Assembly (NCBI GenBank): GCA_027449125.1
Contig: DAIDME010000089.1
Coordinates: forward strand, 1 to 64,000
Reading direction: 5' to 3'
DNA: 64,000 bases
From: Solirubrobacterales bacterium
GTDB lineage: Bacteria; Actinomycetota; Thermoleophilia; Solirubrobacterales; Solirubrobacteraceae
This document shows, one piece after another, positions 35,676 through 38,810 of the stretch. The notes under the pieces were generated by a model. It saw only the letters and a list, made by a program, of their open reading frames with translations. It had not been told where the DNA came from and ran no database searches. Every line of letters begins with the position of its first letter. The first letter of the stretch is position 1. The translations under genes were made by a program, and so were the position numbers.

Positions 35676-36239
35676 ATGGAGCGCTCAACCGAGGTTCGCA
35701 GCTGGCTTCGCTGCTACCGCTGCTGGTCTCAGAACCTCGAGGTCCAGCTGCACTACGAGGGCATCCACCGCATCGACCCCGAGACGGGCGAGCGCACCGA
35801 GATCGTCGACGAGATGCAGGAGGCGGTGGTGCAGTGCCTGGAGTGCATGCACGACCAGCCGCACCTCGGCTTTCACAACGGCCGCGTGGAGCCGATCGAG
35901 GACCGCTGGGAGCGGATGATCACGGGCACCCCATGGATCGCCTCCTGCACGGTCACGGTCGGCGCCGACGAGGTCGAGACCTGCTCCGGGCCGGATGCAG
36001 GCGACGCGCTCTCATATGCGGCCTTTGGGGACCACGGCACGCGCGAGTTCTTCACCCACGTGCGCTTCCACAAGCACGATGACGAGCGCATCGTGGTGCA
36101 CCTGCTGGTCGAGCTCTACGCGCGCAGCGCCGAGGAGGCGACGGAGGTGCTGGAGCAGGCGGCCCGCGGCACGCTGGCCATCACGTCACTGGCGGAGGAG
36201 TCGCGGCCGCCGGCGTCGAACGGCCGCAGCACACACTGA
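35676..36239 (+). CDS. hypothetical protein with paired Cys motifs
   Basis: 187 residues. The N-terminal C-Y-R-C (about 13-16) and C-L-E-C (about 54-57) pairs could bind one zinc ion in a ribbon. The rest is a soluble alpha/beta region with no other known motif. It follows moaA by 39 bp, which is weak support for a shared transcript. The last 59 bp overlap a convergent membrane gene. Confidence 0.65.
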   Translation: MERSTEVRSWLRCYRCWSQNLEVQLHYEGIHRIDPETGERTEIVDEMQEAVVQCLECMHDQPHLGFHNGRVEPIEDRWERMITGTPWIASCTVTVGADEVETCSGPDAGDALSYAAFGDHGTREFFTHVRFHKHDDERIVVHLLVELYARSAEEATEVLEQAARGTLAITSLAEESRPPASNGRSTH

Positions 36240-36930
36240 CGATCACCAGCGCCAGCGCGACCGGAACGGTCGCCGGCAGCTCGTAGAACACCAGGAAGAG
36301 GAGGTCGAAGAGACTCGCGACCGCGAACGTGATGATCGCCGCCAGCCGCTGCACGCGCGCGCGGGCGGCGAGCGCCCCGCCGAGCAGGGAGGCGACGAAG
36401 AGGTCTCCGTAACCGAGCGTGATGCTGCCAAACTGCTCGCTCTGCAGCTGCGGCAGGCCACCGCCGGGTCGCGCTGCCACGAGCACCGAGTTTGGCGCCT
36501 GCAGCTCGGCTGAGGCAACCAGCCAGACGTCGGCTGCGGCCATCGCGAGGATCCCGAGCTTCAGCCAGCGCGACGGGGTCACCGCCGCCAGCAGCACGCC
36601 CAGTGTCACGCAGCTGAGGGCCGAGAGCAGTGACGCCGCCGCCTCACCGGCCAGGCTCGCCGGCGTCAGCCAGGCCAGTGCGAAGAGCCCCGGCGCGAGC
36701 GCCGCCAGCCAGGGCCTCGCGCCGCGGCCGAGCCAGCCGAGAGCGAGCGCAGCGAGGATCGGCACCGCCACCAGCGCCAGGTAGGTGAGCCAGGTGGCGG
36801 TCGCCGAGGCGTAGCGGATGGCGAAGATGACACCGACGATCGAGGCCACGGGCAGCAGCGCCCAGCCCCTGCCGCGCAGCCGTCGCAGGCGACGCTGCCA
36901 CGCTTCGGCAAGCGGCCGTGGACCCGCCAC
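36181..36930 (-). CDS. multi-spanning membrane protein with GxGD motif (intramembrane aspartyl protease-like)
   Basis: 249 residues and about eight hydrophobic segments. One segment contains a buried Asp (AMAAADVWLVAS, about residue 133), the next contains SITLGYGDLFVASLLGG (Asp near 174), and a later helix has ELPATVPVAL. The order buried Asp, then GxGD, then a Pro-Ala motif is the layout of presenilin and signal-peptide-peptidase type proteases. The usual Tyr before the first Asp is Ala here, and the third motif is PAT rather than PAL, so the assignment is tentative. A general membrane protein is the fallback. Confidence 0.55.
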   Translation of the reverse strand: MAGPRPLAEAWQRRLRRLRGRGWALLPVASIVGVIFAIRYASATATWLTYLALVAVPILAALALGWLGRGARPWLAALAPGLFALAWLTPASLAGEAAASLLSALSCVTLGVLLAAVTPSRWLKLGILAMAAADVWLVASAELQAPNSVLVAARPGGGLPQLQSEQFGSITLGYGDLFVASLLGGALAARARVQRLAAIITFAVASLFDLLFLVFYELPATVPVALALVIVSVCCGRSTPAAATPPPVT

Positions 36931-36992
36931 GACGCCGGCCTGCAGCGCCAGCAGACCGGCGTCGGATGGGATCAGCCCGAGCGTCTGGGCCC

Positions 36993-38810
<1,818 letters not shown>

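Follow-up and report, generated by a model that had tools for sequence, protein, structure and literature searches.

The window analysed here, 64,000 nucleotides of contig DAIDME010000089.1 (positions 1 to 64,000) from a soil-dwelling Solirubrobacterales bacterium (assembly GCA_027449125.1), carries a minus-strand gene for a small, unannotated membrane protein, flanked by a PEPCK gene and a gene for a cysteine-rich protein (Table 1). We propose that this protein acts within the membrane as a diaspartyl protease and has the predicted nine-helix fold of presenilin and signal-peptide peptidase (SPP), enzymes that cleave proteins inside membranes, and that it represents an undescribed family confined to one class of Actinomycetota, a reading to which we assign a probability of roughly 0.87. 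Intramembrane aspartyl proteases of the presenilin/SPP type occur in eukaryotes and archaea, and the best-known bacterial GxGD enzymes are the prepilin peptidases.

Gene, distribution and conserved residues

Window positions 36181 to 36930, where a preliminary description of the sequence had placed a presenilin/SPP-like protein, are covered by one uninterrupted minus-strand frame encoding 249 amino acids from a GTG codon; the same-frame reading of the plus strand is interrupted by two stops. The frame was thus real, but the strand had been left unstated and the start lies about 15–20 codons too far downstream. In many relatives the start codon is found about 15–20 residues upstream of the window's GTG, and the block in between is conserved and helical. 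Because homologues conserve this upstream block, LIPSDAGLLALQAG in the window, as an additional helix, the true start should also lie upstream. An ATG, GTG or TTG occurs within 25 codons upstream of the first-helix block at 136 of 167 loci, with none at that distance in the window and its nearest relatives (15 loci of the window's clade), so translation in this clade probably starts at a rare codon (CTG or ACG) and may be coupled to the stop codon of PEPCK. Several members of the clade have an in-frame stop merely 5–7 codons upstream of the first helix (minus-strand region 36925–36999 in the window). The window's own genome (3.17 Mb in 113 contigs) has one copy of the gene.

Table 1 Positions in the window of the protease gene, its predicted elements and the adjoining genes
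Feature	Position	Strand	Basis	Remarks
Whole gene for the presenilin-fold protein (predicted), about 264 residues	36181..36975 (end 36975/36984)	-		Start codon uncertain; candidate codons CTG (36975) and ACG (36984)
Helix 1	36925..36975	-	Alignment and model	Outside the start given in the preliminary description; near-invariant Gln (89/90)
Helix 6	36514..36573	-	Model	Bears the first aspartate
Asp134 (150 in model)	36529..36531	-	Alignment	90/90; preceded here by Ala
LPQLQ loop motif	36442..36456	-	Alignment	Ahead of helix 7; Pro160 90/90
Two short predicted strands	36412..36441	-	Model	Immediately before helix 7 (model residues 180-183, 186-189)
GYGD (173-176)	36403..36414	-	Alignment	Start of helix 7; Asp176 (192 in model) 90/90
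PAT (219-221)	36268..36276	-	Alignment and model	In the place of PAL, ahead of helix 9; Thr221 90/90
Helix 9	36217..36270	-	Model	
PEPCK gene	36993-38810	-		Stop codon adjoins the start of the protease gene
Cys-rich 187-residue protein (CYRC ... CLEC), no Pfam match	35676-36239	+		Shares its last 59 bp, in antisense, with the end of the protease gene

Of 232 genomes searched across the order, 117 contained a relative (E up to 0.001). A sample of the class gave 124 of 399 genomes (E up to 0.01), five of these matching only with E above 0.001, possibly by chance. Two phylum samples (396 genomes) gave eight clear matches, all in the same class, which we take to be Thermoleophilia. Genomes of other classes gave a few weak matches (3 of 396 in one sample and 7 of 396 in the other) that were taken as chance; the best of them, judged by eye, is a frame that is mostly not hydrophobic. 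Scanning genome contigs returned 77 loci encoding a relative, named mostly as Solirubrobacterales, Solirubrobacteraceae, Conexibacter, Solirubrobacter, Patulibacter or Actinomycetota/Actinomycetes, with odd labels at two (a Marmoricola metagenome-assembled genome and Chlamydiae). The family seen so far is confined to one class of Actinomycetota and, by these names, lies mostly in Solirubrobacterales. The archaeal-type family PF06550 matched none of 296 Actinomycetota genomes, and viral contigs scanned with the archaeal protease PSH contained no relative.

To describe conservation we aligned 90 relatives, namely the 30 best and 40 further chosen matches from the order plus 20 divergent ones from the class, picked for spread and length and not for motifs. 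Residues are numbered from the GTG (protein P0001); model numbering is P0001 + 16. Five residues are invariant in all 90, as they already were in the first 70: Asp134, Asp176, Pro160, Pro57 and Thr221. The invariance of Asp134, Pro160, Asp176 and Thr221 extends to about 25–30% identity, and Asp134 and Asp176 are the sole invariant charged residues, the runners-up being Arg192 (66/90) and Arg72 (65/90). Given this invariance, the conservation of the motifs exceeds chance. A 41-row alignment spanning the family has six invariant positions (P73, D150, P176, D192, T237 and P239 in model numbering). The PAT count of a further alignment (A3) was not used as evidence, as its 63 relatives had been recruited by a DNA pattern for LPATVP and the count is biased.

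The motifs follow the order noted in the preliminary description, with Asp134 in a hydrophobic segment, GYGD at 173–176 in the next and PAT at 219–221 before the last helix. GxGD is intact in 73 of 90 relatives (GYGD 58, GFGD 8 and GWGD 7; the remainder are GWLD in 9 and others in 8). GWLD or GWMD, in which the second glycine is gone and the aspartate kept, is found in 10 of 90, from one part of the class. Some genomes, four of them serving as examples here, have second, more divergent copies of the gene beside the main copy (eight loci), and both aspartates are retained in these copies.

Predicted fold and profile comparisons

An AlphaFold2 model built from the window protein and 63 relatives was confident (pLDDT 94.3, pTM 0.90) and predicts nine membrane helices, at model residues 2–18, 37–56, 59–83, 89–104, 109–133, 136–155 (first aspartate), 190–202 (GYGD), 207–227 and 237–254 (after PAT), together with two short helices (25–34 and 160–168) and short strands at 180–183 and 186–189. 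About eight helices had been counted originally; the model has nine because the upstream start adds one. In VIA-align the top match was SPPL2a, with Z 18.6 over 240 of 265 residues at 3.5 Å, and rows 1–24 (Z 18.6 to 9.3) were exclusively SPPL2a, presenilin (17.2–9.3) or PSH (13.0–12.0), followed at row 25 by the unrelated mGlu2 at Z 4.2. The guidance given with the tool puts common helical arrangements at Z of about 13, and the top Z here is higher. Foldseek ranks 1–9 were all presenilin-1 (E 0.017 to 0.66, best probability 1.00, TM-score 0.37–0.57 by query length). A model of the fragment D150–265 (pLDDT 81) reached only Z 5.2, mixed with unrelated folds and in an unusable register. The whole chain is therefore predicted to adopt the nine-helix presenilin/SPP fold, and the structure prediction proposed in the preliminary description returned a near-whole-chain match to presenilin, SPPL2a and PSH, with nothing else close. 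Because this match is to solved diaspartyl enzymes, it is unlikely that the two aspartates of the model lie far apart.

Several results weigh against this assignment. No Foldseek E-value fell below 0.001. With E allowed up to 10, PF06550, PF04258 and PF01080 matched neither P0001 nor any of 28 relatives, and no PDB sequence of the presenilin/SPP family was similar to the protein family. HHalign comparison of a 64-row family alignment with the single PSH sequence gave a non-significant probability of 1.2% (P 0.045), and values against PSH spanned 1.2–1.4% overall. Among motifs, the tyrosine of YD in helix 6 is found before the first aspartate in 0 of 90 relatives, where A, V, I, L, S, C, G or T stands instead; a glycine position of GxGD is altered in 17 of 90 (GWLD, GWMD, DYGD, DFGD, GYAD, DYPD and EYAD); and PAL before helix 9 is not present as such, its place being taken by PAT in 82 of 90, AAT in 4, PGT in 3 and PNT in 1.

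Other sequence searches were likewise empty: P0001 had no Pfam or NCBIfam assignment and no similar PDB sequence, and PF06550 and PF04258 found nothing in the window's own genome. An assignment to DUF7144 was set aside, as it came from one of 28 members with a weak match (E 0.0064) below the cut-off. In the sole HHalign alignment with PSH, D150 and D192 were paired with D162 and D220 of PSH, and the score was equalled by few local shuffles (3 of 150 for alignment A3 and 1 of 150 for A5; 3 of 150 and 0 of 150 for the Natrinema sequence, a comparison not independent of that with PSH). Reversed sequences scored 10–13 against 19–21 for the real ones. PAT was not in register with PSH or Natrinema, and the broad family compared with a two-sequence PSH alignment gave a weaker result that covered only GxGD. 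The similarity to PSH is thus weak but in register. The preliminary description had held that a profile search finding no relation would speak against its reading, and at the level of sequence profiles that is the outcome, with no Pfam GxGD family matched and HHalign at 1.2–1.4%; the score nevertheless exceeds that of most shuffles, with both aspartates in register.

The family lacks YD, PAL and a profile match, and most likely works like presenilin/SPP enzymes. Because of those three differences we file it outside PF06550 and PF04258, as a bacterial family in its own right, new and divergent, of diaspartyl intramembrane proteases with the predicted presenilin/SPP fold and with predicted activity and substrates. 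The predicted fold, the motif order, the two invariant aspartates and the nine helices support the idea, raised at the outset, of a presenilin/SPP-like intramembrane aspartyl protease, and the family-wide absence of the tyrosine, which had been noticed in the single sequence, bears out its suggested status as a diverged or new subfamily. The pattern suggests that the tyrosine of YD and the leucine of PAL are dispensable in this fold and that the two aspartates are not.

Proposed mechanism, alternatives and genomic context

As the protein shares its predicted anatomy with PSH, presenilin and SPP, we infer the same chemistry by analogy, including pocket geometry and substrates. The helix 6 aspartate, Asp134, would face its GYGD counterpart in helix 7, Asp176, in a water-filled intramembrane pocket, and the pair would activate a water molecule. 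The strands and the LPQLQ loop before helix 7, with PAT before helix 9, would clamp an unwound transmembrane stretch of the substrate as a beta strand, a role for the PAT side modelled on the PAL motif in gamma-secretase. The peptide bond would then be cut and the two halves would depart on opposite sides. Mutation of either aspartate is reported to abolish the activity of PSH (PMC2947513), and presenilin and SPP are likewise reported to lose activity when either is replaced (PMC2947513, PMC7768045).

Loop charges bear on orientation. In a positive-inside count, loops 1-2, 3-4, 5-6 and 7-8 are together richer in lysine and arginine than the other loops in all 90 relatives (on average 7.7 versus 2.3), which predicts an SPP-like, inverted topology with the N terminus outside and the C terminus inside. 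SPP and its SPPL homologues are reported to cut type II proteins, and presenilins type I (PMC7768045). Since the charge pattern predicts the same orientation as that of SPP, type II substrates are expected here, and candidates would be N-in helices of type II proteins or signal peptides that are left over. In bacteria such signal peptides are also N-in helices, and on that ground a housekeeping role as a signal-peptide peptidase is our conservative guess.

The alternative that survives best is that the protein has the presenilin fold without being a protease, its aspartates serving in ion or proton handling or in the binding of lipids or a partner. Protease activity is a prediction from the model, the GxGD glycines vary and the YD tyrosine is missing throughout, all of which such a role would accommodate; both aspartates and the threonine of PAT are nevertheless kept in every relative while most positions drift to about 25–30% identity, the pattern of a catalytic pair, and the relatives of solved structure that the fold comparison brings up are either proteases or the catalytic subunits of proteases. 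We regard this alternative as improbable. Membership of the type IV prepilin/preflagellin peptidase branch of GxGD enzymes (A24) would place the protein with the aspartyl proteases of GxGD type that are usual in bacterial membranes, but the A24 profile PF01478 matched neither P0001 nor 28 relatives up to E 10, and the predicted layout of nine helices, in which helices 6 and 7 bear the aspartates and PAT precedes helix 9, argues against it. All of the first 24 structural rows are of the presenilin type with no A24 chain listed, by itself no exclusion, and overall we give this assignment very little credence. A coincidental D...GYGD...PAT order in an unrelated hydrophobic protein would explain why sequence profiles yield no known family, but has almost no chance of being right, given that all 90 relatives keep the motif residues (86 of them in the case of the PAT proline) and given the drop from Z 9.3 for presenilin-type rows to 4.2 for others.

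Turning to the neighbourhood, no partner gene was conserved across the family among the neighbours scanned (68 of 115 upstream and 72 of 114 downstream, most near-duplicates having been left out by eye, with genes called by a codon-composition heuristic). PEPCK was found upstream in 5 of 68 and a sigma-70 region 2 downstream in 7 of 72. The Cys-rich gene is kept beside the protease gene at 23 of 126 distinct loci. A single association stood out as suggestive. At seven distinct Conexibacter-type loci, a gene for an extracytoplasmic function (ECF) sigma factor lies directly downstream on the same strand; its product has a zinc-finger-like, Cys-containing segment, in most cases a hydrophobic stretch, and an extended tail rich in Pro and Thr (sigma-70 regions are Pfam matches; the zinc-finger and membrane readings were made by eye and hydropathy scan). 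This sigma factor is apparently membrane-tethered in a type II layout. Because such a layout suits an enzyme of SPP-like orientation, this bacterial presenilin/SPP branch might run regulated intramembrane proteolysis that releases membrane-tethered sigma factors, an idea we consider speculative and rather unlikely.

If the proposed protease reading holds, a bacterial family with the presenilin fold beyond the reach of sequence profiles would inform the question of how presenilin-type proteolysis arose and would give these bacteria another way of cleaving proteins within the membrane, and so small an enzyme with short loops would serve structural and inhibitor work. We found no description of a bacterial presenilin-like family in the literature searched, which lay mostly outside subscription papers; the wording 'bacterial presenilin' occurs for a homologue mentioned in passing, in a lipid-binding context, in the text consulted of PMC8396450.

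Comparison with known systems

Among archaeal enzymes, PSH/MCMJR1 (4hyc, 4hyg and 4y6k) matches the model with Z 13.0–12.0 over 217–218 residues, and both aspartate pairs are in HHalign register. PSH is reported to need no partners for activity and to consist of one chain (PMC9282858), and to have PPL and no obvious PAL (PMC2947513). The window protein is likewise a single chain without an obvious PAL; it differs from PSH in that PSH has YD, and the profile similarity between them is weak. Presenilin-1, the catalytic subunit of gamma-secretase, matches with Z up to 17.2 over 249 residues and shares the order D, GxGD, P-A-x, whereas it works in a complex with partner subunits, has the orientation opposite to that predicted here and is 11% identical. 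The best structural match is human SPPL2a (9k92 and 9k93) of the SPP/SPPL family (A22B, PF04258), at Z 18.6 over 240 residues. Unlike SPPL2a, to which it has 12% identity, and SPP, the window protein has no Pfam match, no tyrosine before the first aspartate, PAT for PAL, no N-terminal extra domain and very short loops, with about 264 residues in total. Like them, it has nine helices, predicted in its case, of which the sixth and seventh bear the aspartates, and, by loop-charge prediction, it shares with SPP the inverted orientation reported in PMC7768045, with the N terminus outside.
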